From contig CAIPZZ010000226.1 of the NCBI GenBank assembly GCA_903869665.1, positions 1-35,245 of the forward strand: 35,245 nucleotides of DNA, written 5' to 3'. Every line of letters starts with the position of its first letter. The first letter of the stretch is position 1. Under the pieces are notes generated by a model. The model searched no databases, was not told the DNA's origin, and saw nothing but the letters and a program-made list of their open reading frames with translations. Source of the stretch: an uncultured Opitutia bacterium. Its GTDB lineage: Bacteria; Verrucomicrobiota; Verrucomicrobiia; Opitutales; Opitutaceae. The position numbers and the translations under genes were made by a program. Shown here piece after piece: positions 26,472 to 31,187 of the stretch.

Positions 26472-27998
26472 TCAATACACCTGCTCGTCGAGCAAGGCGA
26501 ACAGCTCGGCCTCGGTGACGCGGCGCTGCGCCATCGAGTCGCGCTCGCGCAGGGTGAAGGTGTCGCCGGGCTTCTCGATGGTGTCGAAGTCCACCGTCAC
26601 GCACCACGGCGTGCCGATCTCGTCCTGCCGGCGGTATCGGCGGCCGATATTGCCGCCGTCGTCGTAGAACACGGCGTAGCGGCGCTTGAGCTTCGCGTGC
26701 AGCGCGCGGGCGCGAGCAACGAGCGGTTCCTTGTTTTTCAGCAGCGGGAGCACGGCGACCTTCACGGGCGCGACGCGCGGCGAGAGGCGGAGCACGGTGC
26801 GTTTCTCGACGCTGCCCTTCTCGTCGGTCACGTCCTCCTCGGCATAGCCGGCGCAGAGCACCGCAAGTAGGATGCGGTCCACGCCCACGGCGGGCTCGAT
26901 GACGTGCGGGACGAATTTCTTCTTCGTCGCCTCGTCGAAAATCTCCTGCGGCTTGCCACTGGCGGTGCCGTGCTGCGTGAGGTCGTAGTTGCCGCGCGCG
27001 GCGATGCCCCACAGCTCCTGCACGCCGAAGGGATACTGGAACATGATGTCGGTCGTGCCCTTCGAGTAGAACGCGAGCTTGGCCTTGGGGTGGTCGTATT
27101 CGCTCAGATGCGAGTCGGGCAGGCCGATGGAGCGCAACCAATCCTTGCACCAGTCAATCCAGTGGCGGTGCCACTTCGCCCAGTCGTCGTCCTCGTGGAT
27201 GAAGAACTCCATCTCCATCTGCTCGAACTCGCGCGAACGGAAGATAAAGTTACGCGGCGTGATCTCGTTGCGAAACGACTTGCCGATCTGCGCGATCCCG
27301 AACGGGAGTTTCACGCGGCCGGTGTCCACGATGTTCTTGAAATCAACGAACATCCCCTGCGCCGTCTCGGGCCGAAGGTAGGCGACCGACGAGGCGTCGG
27401 TCATCGCGCCGACGTTCGTCTGAAACATCATGTTGAACGAGCGCGGCGGCGTGAGGCTGCCCGGCTCGCCGGTGGCGGGGGACGGGATGAGCGCGATATC
27501 CTCGGGTTTGGCCTCGGTGAAATCCTTGGCGACGACGGGCGCAAGCGCGCCTTGGATGGCCTTCTTGCGCTTGAACGCTTCGGCGGCGGTTTGGAGTTCA
27601 CCGACTGTGTTCTCGCTTTCGAGGGCGGAAACGTAGCCGACGGTGTTGCCATCAACGACGACAGCGGCGAAGAAAAGCTGGTCGGCGCGGTAACGGTTTT
27701 TCGAGACCTTGCAATCCACGAGCGGGTCGGTGAAGCCGGCGACGTGGCCGGACGCTTCCCAGACCTTCGGGTGCATGATGATGGAGGACTCAAGGCCGAC
27801 GATGTCCTCGCGGCGGCGGACCATGTCGGCCCACCAGCAATCGCGGATGTTTTTCTTCAGCTCGGAGCCAAGGGGACCGTAGTCGAAAAAGCCGTTGAAG
27901 CCGCCGTAGATTTCGGAGGACGGGAAGATGAAACCGCGGCGCTTGGCGAGCGACACAACGGCTTCCATGAGGTTGGCAGGAGGGACGGACGTGGACAT
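26472..27998 (-). CDS. glyS: Glycyl-tRNA synthetase, single-chain (eukaryotic/archaeal-like) type
   Basis: This class II synthetase charges tRNA-Gly. The 508-aa product is the homodimeric type, not the alpha2beta2 GlyQS type. Motifs are [25 protein letters not shown] at the N-terminus (split over residues about 20-44), [15 protein letters not shown], motif 2 [20 protein letters not shown] with QMEMEFF, motif 3 [16 protein letters not shown], and the anticodon-binding domain ([31 protein letters not shown]). The usual SFGVDR reads AVGVDR. The ATG at 27998 ([10 protein letters not shown]) is chosen over an in-frame GTG at 28013. No upstream T-box is apparent. Confidence 0.96.
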
Positions 27999-28236
27999 AG
28001 GAACGGGCAGCACTACCCGCCCGATCCGCCGGGGTCAATGGCGCGTTACGGTTCCCTGATAAGAAACCTGTGACAATGCGCGACCACCATAAGCCAGCGG
28101 CTATGTCAGCAGCCTGCTCGCAGACGCGCTTATCTCCCGTCGGATCGCTTGCTGTGGACAAAGACAATGAAAGGCATCCGACCAGCCATGGAGGTAGATG
28201 CGCTACTAGAGTCAGCTCGCAACAGATGGGCTCGGA
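27999..28236. other. Gap between glyS and the Gly-rich gene, no gene recognised
   Basis: About 240 bases of average composition follow the Gly-rich gene and precede glyS on the minus strand. No tRNA, hairpin-plus-U-run or family-like ORF is seen. The glyS promoter probably lies here. Confidence 0.4.
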
Positions 28237-28710
28237 TCAAAATGCTACCGCATCGCCACCGTTGTCCACGGGATTGTTGTCGCCAGCGGCACCGGCATCG
28301 ACATCGCCGAAGTCTGGCAATCCGCCGCCGCCAAAGCCGCCCGGTCCGCCGAATCCGCCGGCGCCGCCGCCAAAGTCGGGAGGGCCTCCCCCCGCTCCGC
28401 CGAAACCTCCGGCGCCGCCAAAGCCACCACCGCGCCCACCGCGCCCACCGAACCCGCCCTGCCCACCAAAATCGGGCGGGCCGAAGTTGTTGAAGCCGCC
28501 GGCGTCGGGCGGAGCGAAGTTGTCAGCCGGCACGTAATCGTTGTAGGCGAGGCCGGTGTCGCGCGCCACTGCGGCGGCTGGCGCGGGGCCGGACACAGAC
28601 GGAGCGGTGGGAAGGTCACGTTGCCCCAAGCGCGCACCCAGATACGCGACTGAGGTCGCGACAAGGAGCAGCAGGGCAATGGTGAGTGCGGTTTGAGTTT
28701 TGTGATTCAT
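28237..28710 (-). CDS. Small Gly-rich exported or membrane-anchored protein
   Basis: The 157-aa product starts with an uncleaved-signal-like helix (ALTIALLLLVATSVAYLGA, residues 8-26). A Pro/Ala linker and then a region of about 65 residues made largely of Gly and Phe follow. PDFGG-like units recur at residues 79-83, 111-115 and 132-136 with GGFGG runs between them, and an acidic tail ends in Phe. I recognise no family; such sequences are often envelope, adhesive or low-complexity surface proteins. No terminator is visible downstream. It lies just beyond the terminator of the neighbouring 53-aa gene, so it probably has its own promoter in the AT-rich stretch 28711-28763. Confidence 0.6.
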   Translation of the reverse strand: MNHKTQTALTIALLLLVATSVAYLGARLGQRDLPTAPSVSGPAPAAAVARDTGLAYNDYVPADNFAPPDAGGFNNFGPPDFGGQGGFGGRGGRGGGFGGAGGFGGAGGGPPDFGGGAGGFGGPGGFGGGGLPDFGDVDAGAAGDNNPVDNGGDAVAF

Positions 28711-28763
28711 TGGAAAGTGAAGTATCTGATTGTAGTAATAATGGTGACAGACGCGGACTTTTC

Positions 28764-28799
28764 AAAAAAGCCGCCGGCGATCCCGCAACCGCCGGCGGC
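28764..28799 (-). terminator. Intrinsic terminator after the 53-aa peptide gene
   Basis: GCCGCCGGCG (28770-28779) pairs perfectly with CGCCGGCGGC (28790-28799) across a 10-nt loop, followed on the minus strand by six T (28769-28764). It lies 38 bp after the stop of the 53-aa gene and 53 bp before the start of the Gly-rich gene. Confidence 0.92.
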
Positions 28800-28837
28800 C
28801 AGTGTGTGTATGACGTGGTGGGTGAGCGCGGGAAATT

Positions 28838-28999
28838 TTATCCTGTGAAACCGTCGGGGCCTCCACCCTGCGGCCCGGGGCCGCCGGGATTTTGTGGGCC
28901 ACGACCTTGGCCGCCGCGCGGGCCGCCGGGTTGCGTGAGGGAAAGCGAGGTGACCGCGAGCAGCCACGCGCCGCTAAGGATGAGGTGTTTTGTCTTCAT
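28838..28999 (-). CDS. 53-aa exported Gly/Pro-rich peptide
   Basis: This short frame runs from ATG 28999 to TAA 28838. The peptide has a signal-peptide-like start (MKTKHLILSGAWLLAVTSLS) and then an almost pure Gly/Pro/Gln/Arg tail (QPGGPRGGQG, NPGGPGPQGGG). Signal cleavage would release a peptide of about 30 residues. Support for a real gene is the textbook signal, a strong terminator 38 bp downstream, and an upstream element (29062-29088) shared with the next small gene. No family is recognised. There is no Shine-Dalgarno sequence, as elsewhere in the window. Its closest companion is the 50-aa peptide at 29300-29452, which shares the GAWL(I/L)A segment in its hydrophobic helix. Confidence 0.6.
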   Translation of the reverse strand: MKTKHLILSGAWLLAVTSLSLTQPGGPRGGQGRGPQNPGGPGPQGGGPDGFTG

Positions 29000-29061
29000 G
29001 TTGGCAACTGGTTCGGCCCACAGTGAACACCCGCTGTGTAACGCCGTGATGTGCGTGGGCG

Positions 29062-29088
29062 GAGATTTTGTTAAGCGCGGGTAAAATC
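29062..29088. promoter_or_regulatory. Upstream element copy 1 (GTTAA-N6-GTAAA)
   Basis: The plus strand reads GAGATTTTGTTAAGCGCGGGTAAAATC in two parts: GAGATTTTGTTAAG then CGCGGGTAAAATC. Copy 2 at 29524-29549 is nearly the same. The core GTTAA-N6-GTAAA is an 11-bp-phased direct repeat, the spacing bound by OmpR/PhoB-type response regulators and close to the enterobacterial CpxR box. It lies about 62 bp before the start of the 53-aa gene. The binding protein is unknown. Confidence 0.5.
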
Positions 29089-29134
29089 CTCACGGCACGC
29101 GCCCGCCGCAATGTCCCACGCGCGTCTCACGGCC

Positions 29135-29171
29135 AAAAATGAAAAGTCCGGCGGCCCCCCGGCCGCCGGAC
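29135..29171 (-). terminator. Intrinsic terminator after the 50-aa peptide gene
   Basis: GTCCGGCGGCC (29146-29156) and GGCCGCCGGAC (29161-29171) form a perfect 11-bp stem with a CCCC loop. On the minus strand TTTTCATTTTT follows. It lies about 130 bp after the stop of the 50-aa gene, so the transcript would carry a sizeable 3' untranslated segment. Confidence 0.88.
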
Positions 29172-29299
29172 ATCCATGCGTGCGCAACTTTGTCCAGCCA
29201 ACGCACGAAATTATTCTCCCGCGATGCGGGGCGGCAGCATAGCCGCTCCGCCAATCGCGACCTCACCCGGGGAACATCCCGGATGGCGTGCACGAAATA

Positions 29300-29452
29300 T
29301 CAGCGACCCGGAGCGGTGGTCGCGTTCACGGCCGGCTGGCCGGCCATGCGGGCGGCGGACGTCTGGGGGCGGGCGACTACGAGCACGGCGGCGGCGATCA
29401 GCCAGGCACCGGCGACGCCGGCGAGAAGGGTCTTGTTGCTGAGATGGGTCAT
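29300..29452 (-). CDS. 50-aa membrane-anchored or exported peptide
   Basis: The frame runs from ATG 29452 to TGA 29300. It encodes a short polar start (MTHLSNK), one hydrophobic helix (LLAGVAGAWLIAAAVLVVA, residues 9-27) and a small Ala/Thr/Gln tail of about 22 residues. Like its 53-aa neighbour it has GAWL in the helix, a conserved element about 72 bp upstream (29524-29549) and an intrinsic terminator downstream. I recognise no family. It is transcribed divergently from the DUF2330 gene, whose start is 157 bp away, so the two may share control. It is too short for homology to be judged by eye, and chance remains possible. Confidence 0.5.
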   Translation of the reverse strand: MTHLSNKTLLAGVAGAWLIAAAVLVVARPQTSAARMAGQPAVNATTAPGR

Positions 29453-29523
29453 GGCGTTTCAGGGAGGATTGTTTGCGCCGCCATGAAACATCCGGCGCGT
29501 TAGGCCTGTGTGTGCGCGACAGC

Positions 29524-29549
29524 GAGATTTGTTAAGCACACGTAAAGTC
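29524..29549. promoter_or_regulatory. Upstream element copy 2 (GTTAA-N6-GTAAA)
   Basis: The plus strand reads GAGATTTGTTAAG then CACACGTAAAGTC. Apart from one missing T and four substitutions it equals copy 1 at 29062-29088. It lies between the 50-aa gene (minus) and the DUF2330 gene (plus), about 60 bp before the latter's ATG, so it could serve either or both. Confidence 0.5.
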
Positions 29550-29609
29550 GCCCAGCACGCGGCGGGAAAACGTCTCGCCTTACCGCTCCTTCCGCGTTGT
29601 CCTGCGGCC

Positions 29610-31187
29610 ATGCGACCCCACCGCGTTACCCCACCGTCCGGAGCGGCCCGTCCCCGACCGAGCGCGCGGCATTGGTTGGCCGCGCTGCTGCTCCTGCTGA
29701 TCGCGGCCGCCGCGCCTGCGCTCCGGGCCGATGGCATCGTGCTGCCGCCGATCGCCGCCCCGGCGGTGACAATGCCCGACCAGCGCGCGCTGCTTGTGTG
29801 GCACGAGAAGGAACAGACCGAGAAGCTCGTGATCGAGTCGCGTTTTGTCGGGCGTGGGCGCGACTTCGCGTGGGTTGTGCCACTGCCGTCGAAGCCAGAG
29901 ATCGCGCCTGCCACGCGCGGCACGCTGCCGACGCTGGAGGCGCTGTTCAAACCTTCGCTGGCGCCGAGATGGGATCTCGCGCCGATATTAGTCGTGGTGC
30001 TCACGCCGTTGGCTCTGCTGTGGCTGGCATCTGGCGGCGCGTTTTTTTCAAAGGGATTTTTCACCAGCCTGCTCGCCGGGCTGCTGCTGGCGGGGCTGAT
30101 TTTTCCCGCAATTGGCAGTATTAGCGCGGGCGTCGGTGGCACCGTGACGGTGGGCGTATCTATTGAGCGCAGCACGGTGGGTGAATACGACGTGGCTGTG
30201 CTGTCGGGCGAATCGGCAGGCGGTATCACACAATGGTTGCTTGAAAACAATTTCGCCCTGCCTAAGGCGGCTGAGCCGGTCGTGGCGGAGCACGCCCGCG
30301 CTGGGGGATTTTTCGCGGCCGTGCGCCTGCGTCGCCCACAGGATGAGACTGAGCCAACCGCGCCCGCGCCGCTGGTGTTCACGTTCAAAACCGCGCAGCC
30401 GGTCTACCCGATGAAACTCACTGGCGCTGGCGCGACGGAGCCGCTGGAAGTCGAGCTCTTTGTGTTCGGAGACGCGCGAGCCGAGGCGGACGGGCTGCGG
30501 ATGACGGCCTGCGCGCCGGTGGCCGGTTACGCGAGCAGGGAAGCCCGGATATTTGAGCGCCCAGACCCAACGGGCGCGCTAACCCTCTCGCATCCGGCAC
30601 TGCGCGAGCTCTGCCGGACAAGCACGGTTGGCACATGGCTGCGGGGCGTCCTCTCTCCGACCGAGATGACGCGCGACCTCGCGATCCGCTGGCGGCCGTT
30701 TTCCAGCCCAGTGGGTATGGTAAAGCTTTCCGAGAAGGAGGCGGGATGGCGGAGCCTGCTGGCGGCGACAGGCGTGCTGGTGTTAGCCGCGATTTTTGCG
30801 GCATGGCGCTGGTGGGGAGAGGCACCACCCTGGCAATTTAGTCTGAAGGCGTTGCTTGCCGCCACCGCGCTGGGCGGCACGGTCTGGTGGTTGCTGCCCA
30901 GCGTGCCGACCGTCCCCTATGGGGTCGGCCGCAAGGCCGGAGCAGTGCGCGCAAGCATCTCCGACTCTTTTTCCCGTGCCGTGCGCGAACTGGGGCCCGG
31001 GGAACAAAACGAGGCGCGCGTCAGGGGAAAATTTCTTCGCGCGCTCGCCGAGAACCAATACCTGCCCTCGCCCCTACCGCACGAAGGCGACGCGCCGGGC
31101 GACTACAGTTTCCGCCAACTGCCGGGCGGTGCGTGGCGGCTGGTGTGGATCGCGGAGAACGGGCAGGAGGTCTACCAGCCGGAATAG
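29610..31187 (+). CDS. DUF2330 domain membrane protein
   Basis: The 525-aa product has a long basic N-region, a signal sequence (WLAALLLLLIAAAAPALRA, cleavage before about residue 41) and a DUF2330-type domain. Blocks of that domain are VLPPIAAPAVTMPDQRALLVWH, EKLVIESRF and DFAWVVPLPSKPEI, later YPMKLTGAG. Hydrophobic helices lie at about residues 126-145 and 150-172, breaking into the domain, and further helices at about 390-410 and 413-434 are followed by a polar C-terminal domain. The function of DUF2330 is unknown; it is an envelope protein by topology. The ATG at 29610 is chosen because the frame upstream to 29508 is antisense-like. Its promoter region is shared with the divergent 50-aa gene and holds element copy 2. 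Confidence 0.75.
   Translation: MRPHRVTPPSGAARPRPSARHWLAALLLLLIAAAAPALRADGIVLPPIAAPAVTMPDQRALLVWHEKEQTEKLVIESRFVGRGRDFAWVVPLPSKPEIAPATRGTLPTLEALFKPSLAPRWDLAPILVVVLTPLALLWLASGGAFFSKGFFTSLLAGLLLAGLIFPAIGSISAGVGGTVTVGVSIERSTVGEYDVAVLSGESAGGITQWLLENNFALPKAAEPVVAEHARAGGFFAAVRLRRPQDETEPTAPAPLVFTFKTAQPVYPMKLTGAGATEPLEVELFVFGDARAEADGLRMTACAPVAGYASREARIFERPDPTGALTLSHPALRELCRTSTVGTWLRGVLSPTEMTRDLAIRWRPFSSPVGMVKLSEKEAGWRSLLAATGVLVLAAIFAAWRWWGEAPPWQFSLKALLAATALGGTVWWLLPSVPTVPYGVGRKAGAVRASISDSFSRAVRELGPGEQNEARVRGKFLRALAENQYLPSPLPHEGDAPGDYSFRQLPGGAWRLVWIAENGQEVYQPE

Follow-up and report, generated by a model that had tools for sequence, protein, structure and literature searches.

Small peptides controlled by two-component systems are already known, MgrB, CpxM and CpxP among them. 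MgrB is a 47-aa feedback inhibitor of PhoQ (PMC2789325), and CpxM of Pseudomonas is a small peptide under two-component control (PMC12802237). The CpxR box in target promoters is defined as GTAAA-N(4-8)-GTAAA; the CpxR sites of P. aeruginosa include GTAAAGCTTGGGTAAA and GTAAAGCAAGGGTAAA (PMC12802237). In Pseudomonas, the iron/cation-stress system BqsRS uses a four-pentamer layout (PMC4682146). The sequence-only reading of the DNA studied here, according to which no described system has this form, was thus too strong, although we found no description of this particular regulon in the open-access literature, and nothing relevant there on YHYH or EF-hand proteins together with Verrucomicrobia and two-component regulation.

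The analyzed window, a stretch of 35,245 nucleotides from an uncultured freshwater Opitutia bacterium, contains two minus-strand genes for peptides of 53 and 50 aa. Each of these genes likely forms a transcription unit of its own, ended by its own terminator, and both probably belong to the regulon of a two-component system that distantly resembles CpxA/CpxR; rather than random short reading frames, they appear to be parts of an envelope stress response that are switched independently of each other. The putative regulatory pair is encoded on another contig of the same genome (G000) by intact genes for a full-length response regulator (RR, C63:3351-4073) and a histidine kinase (HK, C63:1707-3326), with a partial promoter copy beside the RR gene. 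RR is approximately 90% identical to its orthologs in the genus, and the G079 ortholog contains the receiver (PF00072) and Trans_reg_C (PF00486) domains in Pfam, which assigns it to the OmpR/PhoB family. The OmpR and CpxR models of NCBIfam match RR best, at 203.8 bits (cut-off 331) and 200.9 bits (CpxR equivalog PRK10955, cut-off 341 bits), respectively, and the two best models for HK are both CpxA models, at 159 and 162 bits against cut-offs of 486 and 800; all these scores lie below the family thresholds.

The pair resembles the Cpx system of Proteobacteria (CpxA/CpxR/CpxP, CpxM) in its OmpR-family regulator, its CpxA-like kinase core, and the putatively co-regulated small exported or membrane proteins encoded beside it, and may resemble it in its sensor fold and direct-repeat box. 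The solved structures nearest to the HK core are mostly CpxA crystal structures, behind one integrative WalK model. The AF2 model of the sensor domain (pTM 0.71) aligns with the periplasmic domain of E. coli CpxA (8uk7_A; Z 8.8, rmsd 3.1, 104/116 residues), although many PAS/Cache receptors score similarly, and Pfam gave no CpxA sensor domain at E <=0.1. Box 1 upstream of the 53-aa gene reads GTTAAGCGCGGGTAAA on the reverse strand, that is GTTAA-N6-GTAAA, one base from GTAAA-N6-GTAAA, and this form is near-invariant in 29 aligned sites, which were themselves selected on that pattern. Unlike the Cpx system, the promoters described here contain two boxes 32 bp apart whose orientation relative to the coding strand is reversed, the sensor domain has a Gly/Pro-rich insert, the regulon is different, and the neighbourhoods read contain EF-hand proteins and no recognised LTxxQ periplasmic protein of the CpxP type. 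The kinase of G120 (L126:3373-5151) has a periplasmic insert with LTDAQ/MTDAQ helices that resemble CpxP/Spy motifs and lack Pfam support; its orthologs have a Gly/Pro-rich sequence in this place. Based on the structural likeness, the box resemblance and the best-scoring models, whose scores lie below the cut-offs of the Cpx families, the pair is called Cpx-like by working and resemblance, and not a Cpx family member.

Promoters and terminators of the 53- and 50-aa genes

Three consecutive minus-strand open reading frames and two strong GC terminators were located where the sequence-only reading had placed them. The frames encode proteins of 157 aa (28237..28710; start 28710, end 28237), 53 aa (28838..28999), and 50 aa (29300..29452, starting with MTHLSNKTLLAGVAGAWLIAAAVLVVARP), and none of them has a confident family match in Pfam or NCBIfam; no plasmid relatives were found, and Rfam gave no match. 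The N-terminal helices reported earlier are reflected in the best 19-residue mean hydropathies near the N-termini (2.15, 1.31, and 2.49, respectively), and the Gly-rich tails are present in the 157- and 53-aa frames, that of the latter being Gly/Pro-rich. A GAWL motif does occur in both short frames of the window; however, the orthologs of the 53-aa protein have GALT or AGLM instead, thus it is not a common functional motif.

The predicted intrinsic terminator of the 53-aa gene (28769..28800, minus strand) has a 14-bp stem followed by TTTTTT, and that of the 50-aa gene (29146..29171, minus strand) has an 11-bp GC stem, a GGGG loop, and TTTTCATTTTT; both were found by a hairpin scan and folding, with a folding energy of about -29 kcal/mol for each. 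By a matched criterion, a terminator-like hairpin follows 8 of 16 motif-driven small genes or relics, compared with 11 of 205 other ORF ends (5%) and 36 of 2100 random stretches.

Upstream of each short gene, we identified a 22-nt direct repeat that the sequence-only reading had overlooked (29067-29088 for the 53-aa gene and 29528-29549 for the 50-aa gene). The repeat has the form TTTAC-N4-GCTTAACAAA, and its TTTAC lies 86 and 94 nt from the ATG of the 53- and 50-aa genes, respectively. In the predicted promoter layout, box 1 (TTTAC-N6-TTAAC) is followed 32 bp downstream by box 2 with the same 11-bp spacing, then by a -10-like element, and the ATG is located at approximately +85 to +94. The promoter region of the 53-aa gene (29017..29088, minus strand) thereby comprises box 1 TTTACCCGCGCTTAAC (29085->29070), box 2 CACATCACGGCGTTAC (29053->29038), and the -10-like element TTCACT (29027->29022), and that of the 50-aa gene (29478..29549, minus strand) comprises box 1 TTTACGTGTGCTTAAC (29546->29531), box 2 CACACACAGGCCTAAC (29514->29499), and TTTCAT (29488->29483). 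With profile R1, the two promoters are among the top-scoring ones of the family, at 56.9 bits (E 3.6e-15) and 55.7 bits (E 8.8e-15), each site being itself in the alignment of the model. In the 2.75-Mb genome, the exact repeat pattern occurs only three times; the third copy, on another contig, precedes a small exported ORF of 90 aa followed by a terminator, and the promoter copies number about five. In the other genomes of the genus, the element stands upstream of orthologs of the 53- and 50-aa genes.

Conservation was assessed in an alignment of 29 sites selected on the box 1 pattern, with column statistics for positions outside the search pattern. At +44 to +47, T(A/T)AC is found in 27/29, 29/29, 29/29, and 29/29 sites, and the -10-like positions T58, T60, and T63 in 22/29, 21/29, and 24/29. 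The AC steps at +3/4 and +14/15 recur at A35/Y36 and +46/47, which gives two 11-bp-spaced pairs at a distance of 32 bp from each other. Of these, the second is separated by 10 bp from the -10-like element and would overlap with the -35 region, a layout through which regulators of the OmpR family commonly activate transcription. An RNA leader or riboswitch was also considered for the conserved upstream element and leader and was dropped, as RNAalifold gives no pairs.

The earlier suggestion that the two short genes are independently controlled is well supported, since a two-box promoter and a terminator are dedicated to each of them. Its extension to a cluster of three tiny peptides does not hold for the first gene: a protein of 157 aa is not tiny, profile R1 has no match upstream of its gene, and no terminator follows it by the same criterion. 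The 157-aa gene is a neighbour, and its membership in the regulon is not supported. Farther along, the gene of the class II glycyl-tRNA synthetase (26472..28013, minus strand; PF00587 and PF03129) marks a syntenic block common to the window genome, G001, G102, and G120. On the opposite side, a divergent exported DUF2330 protein (29508..31187, plus strand; PF10092, E 3.3e-26) is encoded in the place that the kinase gene takes in relatives. The listed GTG start of this gene overlaps the promoter and is probably too far upstream, the true start being probably an ATG near 29610; the intergenic region (29508-29610) may also drive the DUF2330 gene.

Products of the two short genes and their orthologs

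The 50-aa gene is conserved in four of the six genomes of the genus and missing from two, all of which look like MAGs, in which missing genes and contig breaks may stem from the assembly. Its orthologs in three of the five other genomes encode 55, 63, and 44 aa, each behind the promoter, and are located directly behind the histidine kinase gene, between it and the EF-hand gene or its relic. Within the first 30 codons, substitutions at the three codon positions, summed over six pairs, are 40/22/64, and dN/dS is 0.15-0.55, while the C-terminal tail varies freely. A conserved AxA cleavage site is not evident in the orthologs, therefore we infer that the product is a single-pass membrane peptide. 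It resembles MgrB in size, in its single helix, in its putative two-component control, and in the position of its orthologs directly behind a kinase gene; the sequences have no recognised relation, and a role as an MgrB-like kinase modulator would rest on size, helix, promoter, and gene position.

The orthologs of the 53-aa gene are found at the same place, downstream of the same promoter, and encode exported proteins of 144, 174, 184, and 237 aa. They carry pairs of EF-hands (PF13202), one of the orthologs being recognised by Pfam, whereas both Pfam and ortholog comparison indicate that EF-hand loops are absent from the window copy, which keeps only the N-terminal helix and the Gly/Pro-rich tail. 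The 53-aa gene is a shortened gene for an EF-hand exported protein whose EF-hands were lost, and it may be decaying. In G120, the EF-hand gene itself has disappeared and its promoter and terminator flank the vanished ORF (L126:2570-2827); this is the one instance of the case named in advance as refuting, a frame lost while the terminator stays.

It might be argued that both genes are decaying leftovers that are losing function after separation from the kinase locus. The 53-aa frame without EF-hands, which has SLSLTQ where relatives carry SFAQ and lacks the usual signal-peptidase Ala, fits this reading, as do the weaker constraint in its N-terminal codons (43/29/44), the loss of the EF-hand gene from G120, and the location of the regulator pair elsewhere in G000. 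However, conservation of the 50-aa frame, two perfect terminators, and two promoters that are among the best of the family speak against it, and we regard decay of both genes as unlikely.

Distribution of the promoter and its link to the regulator gene

A search of 252 family genomes with the extended promoter pattern gave 35 among the matches listed, vs. 3 for the reversed control. A sequence-only promoter profile matched 76 of 250 family genomes (Opitutaceae-type MAGs), and an ortholog of the OmpR/CpxR-type regulator, at 64% identity or more, was found in 68 of the 250. Both are present in 67 genomes, the promoter alone in nine, several of which are incomplete MAGs, the regulator alone in one, and neither in 173; the corresponding Fisher value of 1e-49 is overstated, because the genomes share ancestry. 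Among named records, the full pattern occurs almost exclusively in MAGs of Opitutae, Opitutaceae, or other Verrucomicrobia, together with Pedosphaera, Akkermansiaceae, and one MAG labelled Proteobacteria. In a sample of the phylum, 13 of 288 genomes match the promoter, including four outside the family. The neighbourhoods of the sites repeatedly contain an OmpR-family regulator and a histidine kinase, for instance in the gene orders RR-HK-50aa-EF-hand (G079) and RR-HK-EF-EF-301aa-glyS (G102). At least 23 genomes have a promoter within 32-85 bp of the regulator gene, an arrangement that points to autoregulation or to a divergent target.

In addition to the two short genes, the promoter precedes genes for EF-hand exported proteins, YHYH proteins, MbnH-like di-heme enzymes, single-helix peptides of 27-90 aa (27 aa; 84-90 aa), a VTC polymerase (partial promoter), and a glucose/sorbosone dehydrogenase (GSDH). 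A conserved 27-aa single-helix peptide (MNAKLYTFLA...VLR) is found behind it in four genomes (L048, L040, L051, L065). Behind the same promoter, the window genome encodes an exported protein resembling glucose/sorbosone dehydrogenases (G000:C251:22864, L008); a gene that looks similar is adjacent to a promoter match in a Pedosphaera MAG (L219), but on the opposite strand. Fusions of an MbnP domain with a di-heme MauG domain are encoded near the regulator gene at L088:12610-14358 and L092:6082-7884, which hints at copper. In G001 (L082:9468-12780), a partial promoter copy is followed by genes for a VTC polyphosphate polymerase, a small membrane protein, and a CotH protein. A Pho regulon, considered from the VTC gene alone, was rejected because most promoter targets are not phosphate genes.

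Another regulator of the PhoB, OmpR, or BqsR type could use the boxes, with the adjacent CpxRA-like pair merely a fellow target. Indeed, BqsR likewise uses pentamers spaced by 6 bp, with an extra upstream pair and a last pentamer that overlaps the site of RNA polymerase (PMC4682146), the E. coli OmpR consensus is TTTTACTTTTTG(A/T)AACATAT (PMC5559549), and the VTC gene of G001 stands behind a promoter copy. The half-sites of BqsR are TTAAG, not TTTAC/TTAAC as here, and BqsRS belongs to a different family and phylum. On the other hand, the RR ortholog tracks the promoter in 67 of the 68 genomes that encode it, and other OmpR-family regulators of the genus share no more than about 30-44% identity with RR, so that control by another regulator appears improbable. 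Finally, it is very improbable that the units are small regulatory RNAs of 150-300 nt with an RNA-borne function and incidental ORFs, as the sequence-only reading had considered: the strong terminators and the retention of one promoter and terminator in G120 after loss of the EF-hand ORF would suit such RNAs, but the orthologs of the 50-aa gene keep their frame and N-terminal helix with third-position-biased changes, the same promoter class precedes clear protein genes (EF-hand, YHYH, MbnH-type, GSDH), and neither conserved RNA structure in the promoter or leader nor an Rfam match was found.

A proposed envelope response

For the two short genes as members of a Cpx-like regulon, we propose that an envelope signal would activate the histidine kinase, and that the phosphorylated OmpR-family regulator would then bind the two boxes of 11-bp-spaced half-sites, box 1 being centred approximately 62 bp upstream of the putative start site and box 2 overlapping the -35 region. 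Regulation would presumably be positive and yield a short transcript terminated by the GC hairpin. With its single helix, the 50-aa product would be anchored in the inner membrane, and the 53-aa product would represent a remnant of a periplasmic EF-hand protein. Like MgrB, CpxM, or CpxP, the 50-aa peptide might modulate the kinase or the envelope; feedback on the kinase is plausible from its position, size, and co-regulation. Given the copper-linked MbnP/MbnH proteins and the Ca-binding EF-hands, a metal cue is a reasonable guess for the signal.

Only tentatively do we extend this scheme to the Opitutaceae and some other Verrucomicrobia, where a Cpx-like response might operate via co-induced single-helix microproteins (27, 44-63, and 84-90 aa) with a direct effect on the kinase or membrane; this feedback layer would be similar to that of MgrB, but would have evolved independently and multiplied into several families. 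Envelope stress circuits are poorly described in this phylum, and the analysis provides a regulator, a putative binding motif, and a list of genes for one of them. Unannotated ORFs of 27-90 aa thereby become a testable regulon, and the promoter model detects small genes that are missed by length-based annotation.
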